From a virus, in IMG/VR virus record IMGVR_UViG_3300045970_000106, positions 1-33,440 of that record: 33,440 nt of DNA; one strand, written 5' to 3'. The translations under genes and the position numbers were made by a program. Shown here piece by piece: positions 3,651 to 28,999 of this stretch. Numbering within the stretch: the first letter of the stretch is position 1; the number at the start of each line of letters is the position of its first letter. The notes beneath the pieces were generated by a model. The model did not search any database. It saw nothing but the letters and a program-made list of their open reading frames with translations, and was not told where the DNA came from.

Positions 3651-5342
3651 ATGGCTAATACTATTTCATGGGCACAGTCAACTGATAACAATGTCTTCAA
3701 ATACGACATTTATTCTGGTCCTACGAGTGCTGGTGCTTGGACTTTCCTGAACTCCATTCCGAATGTCACCACATCAAACTATGCCTCTGGAGCCTTCTAT
3801 TACGCCGATGCTTTAGGTGCTGCCGGAACGTGGTATAAACTCAATGCAGTAGATACATTCTCTCAGACAGGTTCTTCTATCTTCCAGGTGGCAGCATCTG
3901 CTGGTGCAGTTCGTGGTGGCAACATCATTGCATGGGAGCCAAGTCAAGACCCGACAGTGACACCGGGTGGCTATTACATCATTGAGGCTGCAAAGCAGGT
4001 TGCTGGTCCGTGGTACCCGATAACAACAATCAATGCTACTTTGACTGGGGCGTTGTACAACCCTGTTGTTAACCGCTTTACCTATGGCGACGAGGCTAAC
4101 CCGTACAACACTTGGTACCACATCATCGATGTAGATCAGCAAGGCCACATGAATAGGCCTTCAGATCCGTTCATGACGCACCCAATGCCGTACTTCGTTG
4201 CCGGTGCAACGCCATTTGGTATCTTCGACGAAGACGTTCAGTTCCAGAGAGACGCTGACAGGAACGCTGACTACATCCGCAAGAAGTTGGGTGAACCAGT
4301 CATGGAAGTCCACATGTCTTCGTCTCAGATCTATGCAGCATTCGAAGAAGCATGTCTTGAATATTCAGCGATGGTTAACAGCTTCCAGGCTCAAAGCGTT
4401 CTGGCTTCGTTCCTTGGTGCTCCGACGGGAACTCTAAGTGGCTCAGAGAACAAGTACACAATACGAACACTTGCTATCGCTCGAGTTGCTGCTGACCCAT
4501 ACGCAGAGGCAGGCGGTGTAAACTCAAGCGTCCCTCATTATAGCGGAAACATCGACCTTACTGTAGGACAGCAAGATTACGACGTCCCAGCAGAGCTACT
4601 TCGCAGTGGACAGTGGGACGGCACAGGTACAGTCGTTCTTCACGACATCTATCACAAGTCGCCGATGCAGGCATATCGTTTCTTCGGAACGACGTCAGGT
4701 CTAAACTATCTAAATTCGCAGTTTAAGTTCGAGTCGTTCACGCCAGAGACGATGTTCTATCTCCTGCCAGTTTGGGAAGACATCCTCCGTGGCATGCAGT
4801 TCAAGACTTCTAACAACGTCCGCCGTTCAAACTACTCGTACGACATTCACAATAACAAGATAAGACTATTCCCTAGCCCACAAGGAAACTACAAACTCTG
4901 GTTTACGTACAGTCTTGAGAGCAACCCGACGAATGTTCTAACGACTACAGTCTCTGGTTCAGGTGTATCTGGTTCAATAACTAACACGAAATACGACGGT
5001 GTCTCAAACGTAAGCAACATCCCGTTCGGAAACATCGTTTACAGTCAGTTGAATAGCATCAGTCATAACTGGATACGTCGCATGACACTGGCGTACTCCA
5101 AGGAGATTGAAGGCCAGATCCGCAGTAAGATGGCGAGCATCCCTATTCCAAATGGTGAACTAACTCTCAACGGCCCAGAGCTTATCGCAGATGCTCGTGC
5201 TGACATGGAAAGTCTACGACTTGAGCTTAAGGAACTTCTTGGTGAAACAACGTACCAGAAGTTAATGGAAAAAGAAGCAGCCATGTCTGAGCAACTTCAA
5301 ACGACGTGGAAAGGTGTCCCAATGGGCATCTTTGTAGGATAA
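3651..5342 (+). CDS. Neck protein (T4 gp13-like) with two N-terminal FnIII-like domains
   Basis: Predicted head-tail connector or neck protein carrying an adhesin-like N-terminus. Residues 1-85 and about 92-180 are two beta-sandwich modules of fibronectin type III character (ISWAQSTDNNVFKYDIYSG; IIAWEPSQDP...YYIIEAA; a WY near the end of each). The first resembles the start of the preceding fibre gene. From about residue 190 the protein changes to a mixed alpha/beta domain (DADRNADYIRKKLGEPVMEV, SSSQIYAAFEEACLEYSAMVN, then a beta-rich region ending in KIRLFPSPQGNYKLWFTYSLE). I associate this with the gp13-like neck proteins of T4-related large phages. The position directly ahead of gp14-like and gp15-like genes supports that. 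The start follows AGGATAACCA at good Shine-Dalgarno distance. The neck assignment is family recognition without a database search. The N-terminal fusion is the odd feature. Confidence 0.65.
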   Translation: MANTISWAQSTDNNVFKYDIYSGPTSAGAWTFLNSIPNVTTSNYASGAFYYADALGAAGTWYKLNAVDTFSQTGSSIFQVAASAGAVRGGNIIAWEPSQDPTVTPGGYYIIEAAKQVAGPWYPITTINATLTGALYNPVVNRFTYGDEANPYNTWYHIIDVDQQGHMNRPSDPFMTHPMPYFVAGATPFGIFDEDVQFQRDADRNADYIRKKLGEPVMEVHMSSSQIYAAFEEACLEYSAMVNSFQAQSVLASFLGAPTGTLSGSENKYTIRTLAIARVAADPYAEAGGVNSSVPHYSGNIDLTVGQQDYDVPAELLRSGQWDGTGTVVLHDIYHKSPMQAYRFFGTTSGLNYLNSQFKFESFTPETMFYLLPVWEDILRGMQFKTSNNVRRSNYSYDIHNNKIRLFPSPQGNYKLWFTYSLESNPTNVLTTTVSGSGVSGSITNTKYDGVSNVSNIPFGNIVYSQLNSISHNWIRRMTLAYSKEIEGQIRSKMASIPIPNGELTLNGPELIADARADMESLRLELKELLGETTYQKLMEKEAAMSEQLQTTWKGVPMGIFVG

Positions 5343-5362
5343 CCAATGTCGAGAAAATTCAT
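5343..5362 (+). repeat. Left boundary repeat of GIY-YIG insertion 1
   Basis: This 20-base stretch contains the endonuclease start codon and first codons. It matches positions 5988-6007 at 15 of 20 bases, with the last eight bases identical. Both copies encode S-R-K-F-I. The pair brackets the endonuclease gene and marks where it entered the start of the gp14-like gene. Confidence 0.6.
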
Positions 5363-5987
5363 CTACGGCTTGATTGATCCAAGAGATGGCCAACTTAGAT
5401 ACGTTGGTCAGTCTAGCGTTGGAATGAAACGCGCAAAAGCATTACATTCTGCAAAGTGTATGTCATGGCAAAAGTCACTTCGTAGTAAGGGACTAGTAGA
5501 AGACGTAGAAGTGCTAGAGGAAACAGAGCAGTTAAATGACGCAGAAATTTTCTGGATCGCTTATTACAAAATGATTGGTGCAAATCTTACTAACTTGACA
5601 GACGGCGGAGACGGTTTGAAAAATGCATCTACTGAAACAAAAATGAAACTTTCAAAGATTTCAAAAGAAAGATGGGTTAAGTCTGAATACAGAGACGCTG
5701 TCATTTCAAAACTAACTGGAAGAGTGCAATCTGCTGAGACTATAGAAAAGAGAGCGTCACGACATCGTGGAAGAAAAAACTCTGACGACACACTGACGCT
5801 GATGTCAAAAACTAGAGTAGATAGACGTATTGGTTGTAAACGTGTGTTTCACGTCAATACAGGAACAACCTACTCCTCTATTTGGGATGCATCACAAGCG
5901 TGTGGAGTTAGCATGGTGTCTATCAGTCGTGTTTTGAAAGGTGAGTATGCGTCTGTAAAGAAACAATACTTTGAATGGGGGAAGTGA
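5346..5987 (+). CDS. GIY-YIG homing endonuclease with NUMOD-type DNA-binding tail
   Basis: Free-standing homing endonuclease of the GIY-YIG family, which makes breaks in related phage DNA lacking the gene and so spreads itself. The GIY element is IYGLIDPRDG at residues 6-15 and the YIG element is RYVGQS at 18-23. A basic stretch (KRAKALH) supplies the expected arginine region, and DAEIFW near residue 65 supplies the conserved glutamate. The middle part (STETKMKLSKISKERW, SAETIEKRASRHRGRK) is a NUMOD3-like basic region. The end (IWDASQACGVSMVSISRVLKG) is a NUMOD1-like helix-turn-helix segment. It starts 3 bases after the neck gene, using the AGGATAACCA initiation context that also precedes gene 3651, and it is in frame with the downstream gp14-like gene, separated only by one TGA. 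Its first residues MSRKFI copy the expected start of that downstream gene. Confidence 0.9.
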   Translation: MSRKFIYGLIDPRDGQLRYVGQSSVGMKRAKALHSAKCMSWQKSLRSKGLVEDVEVLEETEQLNDAEIFWIAYYKMIGANLTNLTDGGDGLKNASTETKMKLSKISKERWVKSEYRDAVISKLTGRVQSAETIEKRASRHRGRKNSDDTLTLMSKTRVDRRIGCKRVFHVNTGTTYSSIWDASQACGVSMVSISRVLKGEYASVKKQYFEWGK

Positions 5988-5993
5988 GCCATC
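5977..5993 (+). promoter_or_regulatory. Shine-Dalgarno GGGGGA placed 8 bases before an ATC codon
   Basis: GGGGGA at 5977-5982 can pair with the anti-Shine-Dalgarno core through five Watson-Crick pairs and one G-U pair. It lies inside the last codons of the endonuclease gene. Eight bases separate it from ATC at 5991, which occupies the exact position expected for the start codon of the gp14-like gene. No ATG, GTG or TTG occurs in that frame until GTG at 6147, well inside the conserved domain. AUC initiation is the simplest reading. Confidence 0.55.
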
Positions 5994-6007
5994 TCGCGCA
6001 AATTCAT
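5988..6007 (+). repeat. Right boundary repeat of GIY-YIG insertion 1
   Basis: Right-hand copy of the 20-base imperfect repeat at 5343-5362. It follows the endonuclease TGA immediately. Where the left copy has ATG this copy has ATC, so the ancestral start codon of the gp14-like gene appears altered. Confidence 0.6.
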
Positions 6008-6521
6008 AGGACGTAAAGAGATCGCGTTTGTAAACTCGATCAACAAAGAACTTATCCAACGAGTTATTGGACAGGAAGTCTATTACTACGCTATCCTTGC
6101 TGACAAGACGAAGACGAACGACTTATACAATGAAGCCATCACGAAGGTGTGGTCACCTGCTGTTAGGTGCAACGCTCTTATCATGTACGAGAACACGCAG
6201 GAACAAATCGGTACAATGGCACCTGATAGTAAGTTTAGCGTCGATGTGTATTTCCACACAGAAGAGCTCAACGACCGCAATGTTCTGCCCAAGATGGGTG
6301 ACTTCGTACAGTTTGGCGAGATAATGTACGAGATACACCAGGTCACGATGCCACAGATCGTCTGGGGATTGGTTGAGCAGAAGATAATGACTAAGTGTTC
6401 TTGCGGACCTGCTCGCAAGGGTCAGTTCGATCCAAAGAAGCAACCATCACCAACAACGCGTGGTGATCTCTTGGCACCAAGCTATCCAGAACAGCCACCG
6501 ACGAAAAGGCGACGGTCATAA
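5991..6521 (+). CDS. Neck/head-tail connector protein (T4 gp14-like), probable AUC start
   Basis: Predicted neck or head-tail joining protein. The frame is open from the TGA at 5985-5987 to the TAA ending at 6521. It reads with clear family character from SRKFIGRKEIAFVNSINK through ELIQRVIGQEVYYYAI, KTNDLYNEAI and VWSPAVRCNALI to MGDFVQFGEIMYEI. This pattern is what I recognise in gp14-like neck proteins of large myoviruses, including an N-terminus of the M-S-R-K-F type. The coding signal begins at 5991 but the codon there is ATC. A GTG at 6147 would remove about 52 conserved residues and is unlikely to be the true start. The C-terminus is proline-rich and basic. The gene stops immediately before the next ATG. 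Alternatives are UGA readthrough from the endonuclease, loss of function, or a sequence error at base 5993. Confidence 0.7.
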   Translation: MSRKFIGRKEIAFVNSINKELIQRVIGQEVYYYAILADKTKTNDLYNEAITKVWSPAVRCNALIMYENTQEQIGTMAPDSKFSVDVYFHTEELNDRNVLPKMGDFVQFGEIMYEIHQVTMPQIVWGLVEQKIMTKCSCGPARKGQFDPKKQPSPTTRGDLLAPSYPEQPPTKRRRS

Positions 6522-7370
6522 ATGGAACTACCAAACTACGAGAATGTCTACATCGAGACTATTGACCGCGCAATCCGTGACTGGCTTGACAAGACGGTCA
6601 ATGTTCGCGTGAAGGTGGCTGACGGCTCTTTGTTTAAAGTTCCTGTCCAGTTTTCACAAGGTGAGCGCTGGTCTGCTGGCCGCACGAAGCAAGCCTTTAG
6701 AGATGATAATGGTGTGCTCATCTTGCCTATCATTGCCGTTAGAAGGACTGGTATCAAGAATGACCCTACCAAGATGGCTCTTGGTGTCCAGACAGAGAAC
6801 ATCCAGATAGCAAAACTTGTAGACCCAAAGACAAATGAAATCAAGAACGCAGAGGGCCTGAAATCAGCAGCTCTGGCTAGAAAGTACCCTGCTATATATG
6901 ATGTCTATACTATCCCTTACCCAGACAGGTTGATAGGCAATTACCAACTCGTTATTCAAGCGCAATATATTACGCAGATGAACGAGATACTCCAGAAGAT
7001 CTGGCGTTCTCTTGATATTCAGAGAACCTTCGTAGCTCCATTCGAGAATGATGGACGGCGTACACCTAGGTCTGATCAGTTTGGAGGGCCGTACAGGGAG
7101 GCTGCTCCCTTGAGTAAGCCATATGTGGTTGGGTTTATGGAAGAGGATATGGCAGATGGCGGAAATCTAGAAGAATTCACTGACACAGAACGTATCATCA
7201 AGTACACAACTAACATTTCGGTGCCTTTTGCTTTGCAGACTTCACCAGAAGGAGAAGTCCCAGCAGTTCAAGTGACCAGAACAGCGTACAAAGCAGTTTT
7301 CAAAGACGAGAACTTCCACTTTGTAAATGACCCTGACGAGATGGATAAGATTTTTGGTAAGCTGAAGTAA
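6522..7370 (+). CDS. Tail completion / sheath stabilising protein (T4 gp15-like)
   Basis: Predicted protein that caps the neck-proximal end of the contractile tail and joins it to the neck, as T4 gp15 does. The 282 residues show the family layout: an N-terminal amphipathic region (IDRAIRDWLDKTVNVRVKV), a strand with FKVPVQFSQGERW, the segment GVLILPIIAVRR, then YTIPYPDRLIGNYQLVIQAQ followed by the helix QMNEILQKIWRSL, and a C-terminal beta region. Length is close to T4 gp15 (about 270). It begins directly after the stop of the gp14-like gene and is followed by a 113-base leader before the sheath gene, consistent with the gp13-gp14-gp15 order. The assignment rests on pattern and context. Confidence 0.75.
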   Translation: MELPNYENVYIETIDRAIRDWLDKTVNVRVKVADGSLFKVPVQFSQGERWSAGRTKQAFRDDNGVLILPIIAVRRTGIKNDPTKMALGVQTENIQIAKLVDPKTNEIKNAEGLKSAALARKYPAIYDVYTIPYPDRLIGNYQLVIQAQYITQMNEILQKIWRSLDIQRTFVAPFENDGRRTPRSDQFGGPYREAAPLSKPYVVGFMEEDMADGGNLEEFTDTERIIKYTTNISVPFALQTSPEGEVPAVQVTRTAYKAVFKDENFHFVNDPDEMDKIFGKLK

Positions 7371-7483: not shown

Positions 7484-9856
7484 ATGGCAAGAAAGTTCGT
7501 ATCGCCCGGCGTATTCACCCAGGAAATCGACAAGAGTTATCTTGCTCAGGGTGTAGCCAACATCGGAGCTGCTGTAATCGGCATCACTGGTAAGGGCCCG
7601 GCCTTCGCGCCGACTGTAGTTAGTGATTTCAATGAGTTTGCAGCCAGGTTCGGCGATGTTCATCCATCAAAGGTGATGCCTTACGCTGCCAAGAACTACC
7701 TGAAGAACTCGAATACGCTCACGACAGTTAGAGTGCTAGGTAGTCGCGATGGCAGCACGATTGCGACAAACGGCAATACTAACTGGGCATTCGCTGTTCT
7801 AGACAGCGCTCTTACAGCATCGGCTGTCGTTGTTGCTCTGCCAGGTATCACTGTGAACTTCACAGGTTCATCTTCTGGTTCTGAGTTCCGCTACTCATTC
7901 ATGAGTGGCGCAACAGTTTTGCAGGCTGGAACGGGTTCAATGCTTCCGTCGTCACCGTCATACATCGGAAAGATCTTCAACACAGATCCAACCAAGGCAA
8001 CGCTTTCACAGTATGGCCACTTCCTCTACAAGAACTTCCAGTGGAACGGAACGGGCAGCACGAACGGATTTGGGTTCGTCACTGCTTCAGTATCAGGTGC
8101 TGCAGCAACAGGAGTGTTCGATGCTGACTATGCATCAGCAAAGACTCCATGGGTTCAGTCTCAGTACTTTGGTAATCAGGTGTATAGCCTGTTCAAACTC
8201 CACGCAATCGGCGGTGGAAATGCATCGAATACGGATATCAAGGTAACAATCACAAACATTAGGCCTTCAAACTCTGTTACAATAACTCCATACGGAACGT
8301 TTGACCTGGTTGTTCGTGTATTCTCTGACACTGATTCTCGTCTATCACAGATTGAGAGCTACAGCAACGTCACGCTAGACCCAACCAGTCCTAACTACCT
8401 ACCGCGCGTTGTTGGTGATCAATACACAACGTGGAATAGCACAACACGCAAGAACACAGTAAATGGCACGTACAAGAATCAGAGCAAGTATATTCGTGTT
8501 GAAATGGGAACGCAGAATCCGTCAGAAGATGCTCTTCCATGGGGTCACGCTGGATACGTAGAGTTTGTACCAACTGGCGCAGGCGCAGATTTCCCTGCAA
8601 CTCCGATGGTCAGTGACAACGTAGACAACTCGTACAACATATCGTCAAATACATACTTTGGTATTGATCTAACGGCTGATGGTGTTGAAAGTCGTCTTGC
8701 TTGGACACTCAAGAATGGTTCAAGCGTTGATCCTGCAAATACGTATGTGTTTGCTGACGATGCATTCAACATGAAGTTCCTATCAGGAAATCTGGTGAGC
8801 GGAACATACTTCGCAGTTTACAACACTGCGTCAGTCCTAGCCACAGATCCTGGAAGCCCTTCAACAACTGGTCTTGCAGGTGCTGCTTATTCTGCTGCTC
8901 AACACGGCTTCACGCTCGCATTCCAGGGTGGCTTCGATGGGTGGGACCCGACGCAGGCTGATCCATTAGCAGCATCTGGTCCAAATACATCAGTTGCTAC
9001 CGTGGCTCTAAAGCTTGCTGTTGATACTCTCAGCAACCCTGATGAGCTCGACATCAACCTGCTAGTAATCCCTGGCGTCATTGATAGCAACGTTAATGCA
9101 TACGCTCGCTTGATGTGCAACACTCGTGCAGACTGCATGATGATCATGGACGTCGTAAACTCTGCGTCTACTGAGTCAGTAACTAGCGTCATTAGCAAGG
9201 TAAATACTCTTGGCGCTGACGACAACTATGCTGCAACATACTACCCATGCTTGAGATACAGCGACACCACAAACGGTGTGCTCGTAACTGTACCTCCTTC
9301 TGTGGCAGTAATCGGAGCATTCGCCTTTAGCGACCGCGTTGGACAGGTCTTCTTTGCGCCAGCAGGTCTCAATCGTGGTGGTCTCGCACAGTTCGGCATC
9401 GTCGATGTTCTCGACCGCTTGACATTCCAGGATAGAAACGATCTGTATGATGCTCGCATCAATCCGATCGCAACCTTCCCGAACGAAGGTATCAACGTAT
9501 TCGGTCAGAAGACACTGCAAGCACGTCCTTCTGCTCTGGACCGTATCAACGTTCGTCGTCTTCTCATCTACGCAAAGAAGACAATCGCATCTGTTGCTAA
9601 GTACCTGCTCTTCGAGCCGAACAATCCGGCAACCTGGCAGAAGTTCCTGTCGACTGTCAATCCTATCCTTGAGAAGATTCGTCAGGACCAGGGCATTGAG
9701 AGGTTCAAGGTTGTCATGGACAGCACTTCAAACACTCCTGACCTGATTGACCGCAACATCATGACTGGTAAGATCTTCCTCCAGCCAACTCGCTCAGCAG
9801 AATACATCGACCTGTCGTTCATCATCACGGCTTCAGGCGTATCATTCGAGGAGTAA
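7484..9856 (+). CDS. Contractile tail sheath protein (T4 gp18-like)
   Basis: Major tail sheath subunit, which polymerises around the tail tube and contracts to drive the tube through the cell envelope. The N-terminus RKFVSPGVFTQEIDKSY followed by GAAVIGITGKGPAFAPTVV is the classic sheath start. The C-terminal region shows the conserved core: NPIATFPNEGINVFGQKTL, SALDRINVRRLLIYAKK, YLLFEPNN and the closing beta-strand region ending in ITASGVSFEE. At 790 residues it is longer than T4 gp18 (659). The extra length lies in the central, surface-exposed domains (about residues 90-500), which are Ser/Thr/Asn-rich like the neighbouring fibres. AGGAG stands 9 bases before the ATG. The tube gene, normally next, lies 17 kb downstream. 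Confidence 0.96.
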   Translation: MARKFVSPGVFTQEIDKSYLAQGVANIGAAVIGITGKGPAFAPTVVSDFNEFAARFGDVHPSKVMPYAAKNYLKNSNTLTTVRVLGSRDGSTIATNGNTNWAFAVLDSALTASAVVVALPGITVNFTGSSSGSEFRYSFMSGATVLQAGTGSMLPSSPSYIGKIFNTDPTKATLSQYGHFLYKNFQWNGTGSTNGFGFVTASVSGAAATGVFDADYASAKTPWVQSQYFGNQVYSLFKLHAIGGGNASNTDIKVTITNIRPSNSVTITPYGTFDLVVRVFSDTDSRLSQIESYSNVTLDPTSPNYLPRVVGDQYTTWNSTTRKNTVNGTYKNQSKYIRVEMGTQNPSEDALPWGHAGYVEFVPTGAGADFPATPMVSDNVDNSYNISSNTYFGIDLTADGVESRLAWTLKNGSSVDPANTYVFADDAFNMKFLSGNLVSGTYFAVYNTASVLATDPGSPSTTGLAGAAYSAAQHGFTLAFQGGFDGWDPTQADPLAASGPNTSVATVALKLAVDTLSNPDELDINLLVIPGVIDSNVNAYARLMCNTRADCMMIMDVVNSASTESVTSVISKVNTLGADDNYAATYYPCLRYSDTTNGVLVTVPPSVAVIGAFAFSDRVGQVFFAPAGLNRGGLAQFGIVDVLDRLTFQDRNDLYDARINPIATFPNEGINVFGQKTLQARPSALDRINVRRLLIYAKKTIASVAKYLLFEPNNPATWQKFLSTVNPILEKIRQDQGIERFKVVMDSTSNTPDLIDRNIMTGKIFLQPTRSAEYIDLSFIITASGVSFEE

Positions 9857-26341: not shown

Positions 26342-26812
26342 ATGGGGTGCATTTACCATGTATTTGATGTTGTAAGAGGAATGTCCTATGTCGGGCAAAC
26401 TATAAAGACGCTGAAGCATCGTAAAGGTGCTCATCTTGGACTAGGAAAAAATACTCCATTCCACAATGCGCTTAGAAACCGCACAAGTGATTTTGTGTGG
26501 ACAACTCTTTTTTCATCAAATGATACAGAAGAACTTGATGCTGCTGAAATGTATTGGGGTAAGTTCTTTGATTGTCTATGGCCAACCGGTTATTGCCTTG
26601 TTATAGGAAGCGCAAATGGCAAGATGTCAGAAGAAACAAAGAACAAAATACGACGTTCAAAGACAGGCAAAAAGCTAAGCATTTCAACAAGACTAAGCAT
26701 TTCAAAAGGCAGGACAGGTCAAAAGCATTCTGATGAAACAAGAAAAAAGATGTCATTAGCCCTTCGTGCAAGAAATGCCAGGATAAGACAAACAACTGAG
26801 GCAAACATCTAG
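26342..26812 (+). CDS. GIY-YIG homing endonuclease with NUMOD3 repeats
   Basis: Second free-standing GIY-YIG endonuclease, 156 residues. The GIY part is CIYHVFDVVRG at residues 3-13 and the YIG part is SYVGQT at 15-20. The catalytic arginine is probably in KTLKHRKGAH, and DAAEMYWGKFFD near residue 66 carries the glutamate. The C-terminal half is NUMOD3-like: MSEETKNKIRRSKTGK and HSDETRKKMSLALRAR, both basic DNA-contacting repeats. It lacks the helix-turn-helix tail of the first copy and the two proteins differ considerably, so they are not a recent duplication. No strong Shine-Dalgarno precedes the ATG, consistent with low expression. It sits just before the tail tube gene, as the first sits before a neck gene. 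Confidence 0.88.
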   Translation: MGCIYHVFDVVRGMSYVGQTIKTLKHRKGAHLGLGKNTPFHNALRNRTSDFVWTTLFSSNDTEELDAAEMYWGKFFDCLWPTGYCLVIGSANGKMSEETKNKIRRSKTGKKLSISTRLSISKGRTGQKHSDETRKKMSLALRARNARIRQTTEANI

Positions 26813-27620: not shown

Positions 27621-27623
27621 GTG
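27606..27623 (+). promoter_or_regulatory. Shine-Dalgarno of the HNH gene, hidden in the terminator stem
   Basis: GGAGG at 27606-27610 is the only plausible ribosome site for the GTG start at 27621, with 10 bases between them. It forms part of the right arm of the hairpin. When the hairpin forms, the ribosome site is paired, so translation from read-through transcripts should be low. Confidence 0.6.
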
Positions 27624-28016
27624 AAGTTGATTACATGCCCAAACTGCAATACTCAAGTCAATAGACCTGCAAAGCATGCTCGTTTTTGTTCTGAAAAATG
27701 CAAACTTGAAAAGCGTAGTTCAAGACGCAGAGTTAGACAGCTACGAGACAGATACGGTCTTAGCATAGACTTGTACAACGACATGTTAAGAAAACAAGAG
27801 TGCTGTTGTGCTGTGTGCAGAGTGGAAGATCCAGGTGGTCATGGGTCTGGTAAGAAACAGGGCTGGCATGTTGATCATGATCACACAACAGGAAAAGTTA
27901 GAGGGTTATTGTGTTATAAGTGCAATCACGCGCAAGGATTGTTGATAACGGTGGAGATAGCAACAAGATTAGTTGATTATCTTCGCCATCACCAGAAAGA
28001 AGGAACACATGTCTGA
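27621..28016 (+). CDS. Endonuclease VII-type HNH endonuclease
   Basis: A 131-residue zinc-binding His-Me finger nuclease related to T4 recombination endonuclease VII. Residues 6-28 hold a CxxC...CxxxC zinc motif (CPNC, CSEKC). The endonuclease VII core follows: RYGLSIDLYNDMLRKQ, then CAVC near 63-66, then GWHVDHDHTTGKVRGLLC with the HVDHDH catalytic stretch, and CYKCNHAQGLL completing the zinc site. T4 endonuclease VII resolves branched DNA during packaging, but short copies like this, scattered between structural genes, usually behave as homing-type nucleases. The start is GTG directly after a terminator hairpin. The end overlaps the next gene by 8 bases, so it reads into the ribosome site of the gp26-like gene. 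Which role applies cannot be decided here; context favours a mobile nuclease. Confidence 0.88.
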   Translation: MKLITCPNCNTQVNRPAKHARFCSEKCKLEKRSSRRRVRQLRDRYGLSIDLYNDMLRKQECCCAVCRVEDPGGHGSGKKQGWHVDHDHTTGKVRGLLCYKCNHAQGLLITVEIATRLVDYLRHHQKEGTHV

Positions 28017-28815
28017 TCAACCTATTTCACTAAGCAAAGTTTCAAGCGTTACACCGCAGGAAATGCAGGTCCCAACTGACATCGTTCCACTTCCGTCGCA
28101 GGGCAGAGTGTATCCACCAGGAACACCACTCGCGGGAAAGCAGGGAATAGACATCAAGTCAATGACGGCAAAGGACGAAGACATTCTAACGTCTCGTGCT
28201 CTTGTGCGTTCTGGCAGAGTTATCAGCAGTCTTCTGCGCAGTTGCATCATTGACAAGACAATCGACCCTGAAAAGATGCTTGTCGGCGACAGAAACTCAG
28301 CACTAATCGGCATCAGGATCACTGGCTACGGGCCAGGTTATCCGATCAAGATTGAGTGCCCAGAGTGTGAAGCAGAGGTCAAGAAGGAAGTTGATCTGAC
28401 ATCGATGCCAATCAAGCCATTCCCAGAAGATCTTGTCTTCGAGGACGGTAAGAATGCATTCACATTCAATCTCCCAGTTAGCAAGAAAGTTGCAGTGTTC
28501 AAGCTTCTAACTGGTGAGGAAGAGCACGAGCTTATGCAGTCTATCGCTCGTGGTCGCAAGACGAATGTCGGTGAAGAACTTGTGACAGGTCGCCTCAAGA
28601 TGCAGGTCATCGAGTTATCTGGCGAGAAGGATCCTCAGAAGCTGGCCGGCATTATCCGCAATCTTCCCGCTCGTGACAGCAGAGAGCTGCGTAAATACAT
28701 CGACAAGATCACGCCGGGAATAGAGCTGAAGACACCATTCACCTGTGAAGTCTGCTCATTCCAGGGGGAGGTCGAAGTGCCACTAGGCACAGACTTCTTT
28801 TGGCCTGAAACCTGA
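28009..28815 (+). CDS. Baseplate / tail assembly protein (T4 gp26-like)
   Basis: Predicted baseplate-hub or tape-measure assembly factor of the T4 baseplate protein family. The family pattern is clear: VPLPSQGRVYPPGTPLAG, KSMTAKDEDILTSRALVRSG, LLRSCIIDKTIDPEKMLVGD, IGIRITGYGPGYPIKIECPEC. Two CxxC pairs (Cys117/120 and Cys246/249) form a probable zinc ribbon around a helical insert. The ATG at 28009 is chosen because GAAGGAA precedes it and homologues begin near there. An ATG 36 bases upstream would add 12 residues from within the HNH gene. The reading frame ends in DFFWPET just as a second frame carrying the expected C-terminal helices opens, so the 268-residue product may be the short form of a frameshifted pair. 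The gene lies between tube and tape measure, where tail assembly chaperones are usual. Confidence 0.8.
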   Translation: MSDQPISLSKVSSVTPQEMQVPTDIVPLPSQGRVYPPGTPLAGKQGIDIKSMTAKDEDILTSRALVRSGRVISSLLRSCIIDKTIDPEKMLVGDRNSALIGIRITGYGPGYPIKIECPECEAEVKKEVDLTSMPIKPFPEDLVFEDGKNAFTFNLPVSKKVAVFKLLTGEEEHELMQSIARGRKTNVGEELVTGRLKMQVIELSGEKDPQKLAGIIRNLPARDSRELRKYIDKITPGIELKTPFTCEVCSFQGEVEVPLGTDFFWPET

Positions 28816-28999
28816 AGATAAGAAATATATCCTCGAGGAACTCTTCTTGCTTACGGAGTATTGTCACATCTCATGGACTGAGGCGTGGCTTATTCCTATT
28901 GAATACAGGAAGTGGCTCATAAACCGCAAGCAAGAAGAGAACAAGAGGATCAAGGAAGCTAATGAGAAGGCCAAGAAGGCTAAACCTGGCAAGCATTAA
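28787..28999 (+). CDS. +1-frame C-terminal extension of the gp26-like protein
   Basis: An open frame shifted +1 from the gp26-like gene. From about 28802 it reads GLKPEDKKYILEELFLLTEY, then CHISWTEAWLIPIEYRKWLI, then a Lys/Glu-rich helix ending in KPGKH. A helix followed by a W-x-E-x-[WY]-x-x-P-x-x-x-R-x-W motif is characteristic of the C-terminal part of this baseplate/chaperone family. No ATG, GTG or TTG start with a ribosome site lies at its beginning, so a frameshift fusion of about 329 residues (264 plus 65) is the best explanation. Gene pairs fused by frameshift just before the tape measure gene are a conserved trait of tailed phages, and phage SPP1 uses a +1 shift. A CTG start or a sequencing error is possible. 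The stop overlaps the stop of the convergent minus-strand gene. Confidence 0.65.
   Translation, partial: AQTSFGLKPEDKKYILEELFLLTEYCHISWTEAWLIPIEYRKWLINRKQEENKRIKEANEKAKKAKPGKH
28795..28804 (+). other. Candidate +1 ribosomal frameshift site (UUC UUU U GGC)
   Basis: In the gp26-like frame the codons are TTC TTT TGG CCT GAA ACC TGA. A tRNA-Phe on UUU (28798-28800) can slide one base to UUU (28799-28801) with perfect pairing. Reading then continues GGC CTG AAA in the frame of the downstream extension. The upstream stop in the new frame (TAG at 28784) and the zero-frame TGA at 28813 confine the shift to 28787-28812. Confidence 0.55.

Follow-up and report, generated by a model that had tools for sequence, protein, structure and literature searches.

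A T4-like phage neck gene with ATC at its start position, behind a homing endonuclease gene that may have taken its AUG and first codons

The window, by which we mean the whole stretch of 33,440 nt that was analysed, is the linear IMG/VR record IMGVR_UViG_3300045970_000106 of an uncultured phage and is probably a fragment. It contains a T4-like virion block in which a gp13-like gene (with homologues in 34 viral loci), an endonuclease gene, a neck gene, a gene in the gp15 position and the tail sheath gene (7484-9856) follow one another. The gene order gp13-gp14-gp15-sheath, by which membership of the T4 gp14-type necks was judged, is therefore present in the window, and the isolated Microcystis phage Mel-JY01 has the same order without the endonuclease. 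The features of the junction are listed in Table 1.

Table 1. Features at the gp13/neck junction of the window
Feature	Position	Strand	Basis or remark
gp13-like upstream virion gene (head-tail adaptor)	3651-5342	+	phrog_211 head-tail adaptor Ad2, E 3e-11; stop TAA 5340-5342
Free-standing GIY-YIG-type homing endonuclease, 213 aa, starts MSRKFIYGLIDP	5346-5987	+	phrog_314 E 5e-17, phrog_7168 E 4e-8; stop TGA 5985-5987
5' direct-repeat copy ATGTCGAGAAAATTCAT, with ATG, codons M-S-R-K-F-I	5346-5362	+	82% identical to 5991-6007
Shine-Dalgarno-like GGGGGA, last codons of the endonuclease gene	5977-5982	+	anti-Shine-Dalgarno duplex -8.4 kcal/mol for start 5991
Out-of-frame GTG overlapping the TGA	5984-5986	+	frame ends at TAA 6014
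ATC at the homologous neck start, proposed AUC start codon	5991-5993	+	alignment column 1 and survey of related loci
3' direct-repeat copy ATCTCGCGCAAATTCAT, ATC replacing ATG	5991-6007	+	pairs with 5346-5362
Neck gene, T4 gp14-like, 176 codons	5991-6521	+	predicted fold resembles T4 necks; flanked by gp13-like and gp15-like genes
First in-frame ATG/GTG/TTG, a GTG inside the conserved domain	6147-6149	+	after 52 conserved codons; without Shine-Dalgarno (-0.2 kcal/mol)
gp15-position downstream virion gene, N-terminus MELPNYENV	6522-7370	+	89% identity to L002 3592-4437

The GIY-N10/11-YIG motif of the endonuclease family is found in the inserted gene as FIY-N11-YVG, alongside the phrog_314 match; the Pfam GIY-YIG model did not reach its threshold on 5346-5987. 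The gene is free-standing and not part of an intron or intein: it has its own stop, the neighbouring genes are intact, and a Rfam search of positions 5000-7000 matched no intron or other family. The same site is empty in two relatives, L002 (81% identical), which reads TAA GCA ATG GGA CGA AAG TTC ATT GGT CGT (protein M-GRKFIGRKE), and L120, which reads TAA ACC ATG TCC AGG AAA TTC ATT GGC (protein M-SRKFIGRKE). These empty sites and both borders of the endonuclease in the window, with gp13 and with the neck gene, have an identical stop-NNN-start geometry.

The original prediction claimed that the neck frame is open back to the endonuclease stop and encodes the expected S-R-K-F-I-G, and that no ATG, GTG or TTG precedes 6147. 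Both claims hold on reading the sequence: after TGA 5985-5987 come GCC ATC TCG CGC AAA TTC ATA GGA CGT, and the translation runs A-I-S-R-K-F-I-G-R-K-E-I. It had also placed ATC exactly where the start codon should stand, and the homologues in L002, L120, L088 and L089 agree with this, as does an alignment of 13 neck proteins in which column 1 is M in 12 of the 12 others and I in the window only. Thus the homologous start position carries a codon other than ATG, GTG or TTG, and no other canonical start in the frame fits the conserved protein. The next one, the GTG at 6147, was rejected as the neck start; it would cost the protein 52 conserved codons and the N-terminal helix, and it has no ribosome site.

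The neck, gp13 and gp15-position proteins served as queries in profile searches for relatives, and neck starts were scored in 192 loci that matched gp14 (∼82 clusters at 90% identity). All readable loci have ATG, GTG or TTG in or close to the homologous start position, the exceptions being the window, with its ATC, and the frameshifted L095. In L179 the neck start is cut off by the end of the contig and hence unreadable. No neck start other than ATG, GTG or TTG was found among the ∼190 other relatives. The neck genes of L088 and L089 begin with GTG followed by (S/A)RKFIT. Genes are inserted between gp13 and the neck gene in L087, L088, L089, L092, L094, L096 and L097, all of which have kept ATG, GTG or TTG. 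The gp13/neck junction is an insertion hotspot, where several endonuclease types, RNA ligase-like and other genes are found. Non-ATG neck starts were counted in 6 of 16 inserted clusters versus ∼8 of 62 adjacent clusters; these counts ignore relatedness and are only suggestive of a somewhat more frequent use of GTG or TTG by displaced neck genes than by adjacent ones.

Two other candidates for a startless neck gene were considered and set aside. L003, L006 and L095 are one contig (IMGVR_UViG_3300020201_000071), and at L003 4991-5010 the neck gene begins with ATG but moves to the +1 frame after codon 5 (ATGCCACTATTTATTCGGACC). Because the hub gene on the same contig is also split between two frames, an indel error is likely there, and we treated the case as sequence error or decay. 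The neck gene of Flavobacterium immuto phages has an ATG; in L004, at 2995, the annotation omits it and places small minus-strand genes across its position. Peptide and DNA patterns were used to look for near-identical copies of the junction in the window, and none turned up; across the profile and pattern searches the junction is carried by one contig only, that of the window.

Between the window and L002, codons 2-52 of the neck gene differ by 30 synonymous and 13 non-synonymous changes on ∼33 and ∼121 sites, respectively, with the synonymous sites saturated. On the window branch, with L120 as the outgroup, there were 10 synonymous changes and 1 non-synonymous change. Judged by these substitutions, codons 2-52 are under purifying selection, and the pattern on the window branch shows that for most of that branch the N-terminal codons were being translated, without dating the loss of the ATG. 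The structure of the neck protein was predicted with a mean pLDDT of 68. Residues 8-26 form a helix in the model, and the best PDB fold matches were the T4 neck structures 9mkb, 9lu7 and 9lu5 (E 3e-6 to 6e-5); as far as the modelled fold can tell, the neck gene is a homologue of T4 gp14.

The expected N-terminus is found twice in the window, at 5346 in the endonuclease and at 5991 in the neck protein, a point that had been overlooked in the original prediction. The endonuclease starts ATG TCG AGA AAA TTC ATC TAC GGC (M-S-R-K-F-I-Y-G), and its first six codons copy the neck start (ATC TCG CGC AAA TTC ATA). Together the copies form a 17-nt repeat (82% identity, spacing 645) that is the longest direct repeat in 5250-6150. 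All differences within codons 2-6 are synonymous, and when these codons are aligned from the start 12 of their 15 bases are identical, which occurred in ∼6 of 100,000 draws from position-specific base frequencies. F-I-Y is also present in relatives of the endonuclease (MEQFIYTL in L085, METVFIYVL in L086); this part therefore belongs to the endonuclease family, and the independent evidence lies mainly in M-S-R-K and in the shared stop-NNN-start geometry. Since the repeat stands at both borders, it seems that the old ATG went to the endonuclease, and the displaced copy has ATC. A long-range inverted repeat (5383-5396 and 5982-5995) was at the level expected by chance.

A GGGGGA 8 nt before the ATC and inside the endonuclease gene had likewise been predicted, and the calculated duplex bears it out as a ribosome-binding site at the proper distance. 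The duplex is among the strongest of the window: -8 kcal/mol is reached at 1.1% of random window positions, so a match at 5991 by chance is unlikely. The site on the gp13 side, which serves the endonuclease start, has about half this strength (-4.0 kcal/mol). A hairpin is predicted around the endonuclease stop and the ATC and could lower initiation further.

In our judgement the chances are about even that the neck gene is really initiated at AUC, in coupling with translation of the endonuclease. The GIY-YIG gene would have entered at the 5' end of the neck gene and would now use the original start signal of the neck gene (ATG 5346) and its first codons as its own beginning. A second copy of these codons, which we infer to have arisen by duplication, would have stayed behind as the displaced neck start, and the start codon there would have become AUC. 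Ribosomes that finish the endonuclease at UGA 5985-5987 would be held by the Shine-Dalgarno sequence GGGGGA, 8 nt before the AUC, and would re-initiate at AUC 5991, 3 nt downstream of the stop, using initiator tRNA, so that the neck protein begins M-S-R-K-F-I-G. T4-like phages need few copies of the neck protein per virion, and a lowered yield would for this reason be tolerated. In E. coli, ribosomes are well known to initiate again after a nearby stop, and a Shine-Dalgarno sequence makes this more frequent (PMC2268962). The yield from AUC should be low, as IF3 discriminates against weak third-position pairing (PMC10158994). Thus, of the AUC start with a ribosome site supplied by the inserted gene, as originally predicted, the position, the strong and well-placed site and the ATG in the endonuclease-free L002 stand; AUC may then be the codon in use, and the ribosome site may have been selected as a compensation.

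The wider claim, that an essential virion gene starts at AUC because an endonuclease took its AUG and first codons and that it now needs the ribosome site encoded by the last endonuclease codons, falls a little short of an even chance. If it is true, an imprecise loss of the endonuclease would kill the phage, and a precise loss via the border repeats would return the neck gene to an AUG start. The junction would then be a natural experiment in which a selfish gene seized the start signal of an essential one, which, once displaced, persists with a near-cognate codon and a strong ribosome site. There would also be a practical consequence: gene finders miss AUC starts and would call the neck gene 52 codons too short here.

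The most serious rival to AUC initiation is that base 5993 is a consensus error or comes from a defective minority variant, and that the neck gene behind the endonuclease has an ATG or other canonical start in the living phage. An AUC start and a base error are inseparable on a single metagenomic contig, and the other readable relatives, including those with insertions between gp13 and gp14, all have ATG, GTG or TTG. Errors do occur in the collection, the frameshifted neck start and hub gene on the contig of L003 being examples. However, no other damage was seen in the window genes examined, and mixing with relatives or with the 5' copy of the repeat would have brought in a G, which all of them have at this base. 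In bacteria, 1 to 2 in 61,358 AUG starts switch to AUU or CUG (PMC5622118), a rate that we estimate to be comparable with plausible consensus error rates; this puts AUC at about one half and leaves error or variant a substantial possibility at about one third.

The remaining explanations are all improbable. Readthrough of UGA 5985-5987 to give an endonuclease-neck fusion, an alternative raised in the original prediction, has lost ground and is now unlikely. The two frames agree and no stop lies between the TGA and the neck gene, but this relation is inherited, stop-NNN-start being the arrangement of the native junction in L002 and L120; for this reason we reject readthrough as the main reading. 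Moreover, TGA is an ordinary stop that ends several other window genes, no readthrough element is known here, and a 213-aa nuclease on each neck subunit would be hard to fit. Neither a recoding element nor a fusion frame conserved in relatives was found, the close relatives being without the endonuclease. We also think it improbable that the neck gene is dead and that the contig represents a defective or helper-dependent lineage. The lack of a canonical start would be explained, but the 176-codon frame is intact, its N-terminal codons are conserved on the window branch and the adjoining virion genes are intact as well. A start at the overlapping GTG 5984, followed by a +1 shift of frame before TAA 6014, would make use of a GTGA overlap with a Shine-Dalgarno sequence, similar to the ATGA overlap that follows an HNH-type gene in L002. 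Only 2 nt separate GGGGG from this GTG, though, no slippery motif is known there, and the peptide VSHLAQIH is unlike any homologue, while the ATC frame encodes the conserved SRKFI; we consider such a start very unlikely.

The least probable explanation, with hardly any weight, is that the endonuclease segment is bypassed or removed, by RNA splicing, ribosome bypassing or recombination between the 17-nt repeats, so that the 5' MSRKFI is joined to the neck protein. The repeats are in register at both borders and precise removal would restore M-S-R-K-F-I-G-R. Yet no intron or other Rfam family is found in 5000-7000, known bypassing spans 50 nt and not 645, the repeats are just 82% identical, and recombination would yield only an endonuclease-free phage. 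The bypass cassette of T4 gene 60 is associated with a homing endonuclease and with unusual translation of an essential gene, and in this respect the window is similar. The border repeats are the sole resemblance to gene 60-type bypassing; the short gap and the take-off and landing signals are missing, and the 645-nt segment encodes an intact endonuclease.

To our knowledge, natural AUC start codons have been documented for very few genes. Among natural start codons outside AUG, GUG and UUG, infC has ATC in Streptomyces and ATT in E. coli, and sigR of Streptomyces has GUC (PMC5472188). As in the neck gene, a near-cognate codon stands at the homologous start of a conserved essential gene; infC and sigR, however, are cellular regulatory genes with IF3 feedback, while the neck gene is a virion gene beside a mobile gene, with no known reason for such regulation. 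The seg and mob genes of T4-like phages resemble the window endonuclease in lying between conserved, often essential genes, without a promoter of their own and with downstream expression signals aboard: free-standing endonuclease genes of T4 carry promoters for essential downstream genes, and segG carries promoters of gene 32 (PMC2988022). In contrast to these genes, the window endonuclease provides a ribosome site from its final codons, and at its other end it opens with a copy of its target's first codons. In the portions of the literature on such genes available to us we found no description of a start codon seized by an endonuclease with an AUC remainder, and a text search of phage papers for an ATC start codon gave no relevant paper.

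A comparable case of a copied N-terminus was found at a second junction, that of an HNH-like gene (L002 3092-3595, 167 aa) before the gp15-position gene. Its first nine codons read MEQPDYKNV, while the gp15-position protein begins MELPNYENV in the window and MNIPNYHNV in L002; the likeness to the downstream N-terminus is expected in ∼5 in a million position-specific draws. No Pfam or NCBIfam model reached its threshold on this gene, and its HNH assignment comes from reading the sequence. Like the window endonuclease, it copies the downstream N-terminus, and it ends in GGGAGGG immediately before the next start, but the downstream gene, in an ATGA overlap, keeps its ATG. Endonuclease genes at the gp13/neck junction in L087, L089, L092, L094 and L097 have no copied N-terminus, so capture of an N-terminus would be one mode of entry and not a rule. 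Two endonuclease borders show such a capture, one in the window and one in L002, which points to a general route of entry at start codons.

Further genes of the window deserve mention. A second GIY-YIG endonuclease gene (26342-26812; Pfam GIY-YIG, NUMOD3) lies just before the tail tube gene and is without a copied N-terminus. An endonuclease VII-like gene with a GTG start (27621-28016) lies between the tube and hub genes and overlaps the start of the hub gene. At the other end of the hub gene (28009-28815, PF12322), a 70-codon frame (28787-28999, + strand) with no start before TTG 28847 overlaps it and continues it in the +1 frame. The same open +1 overlap at the conserved FFWP end (TTC TTT TGG CCT in the window) is present in five of the readable relatives (L206, L208, L210, L212 and L213), and from these reading frames it looks like a programmed +1 frameshift that would give a longer hub protein or its chaperone.
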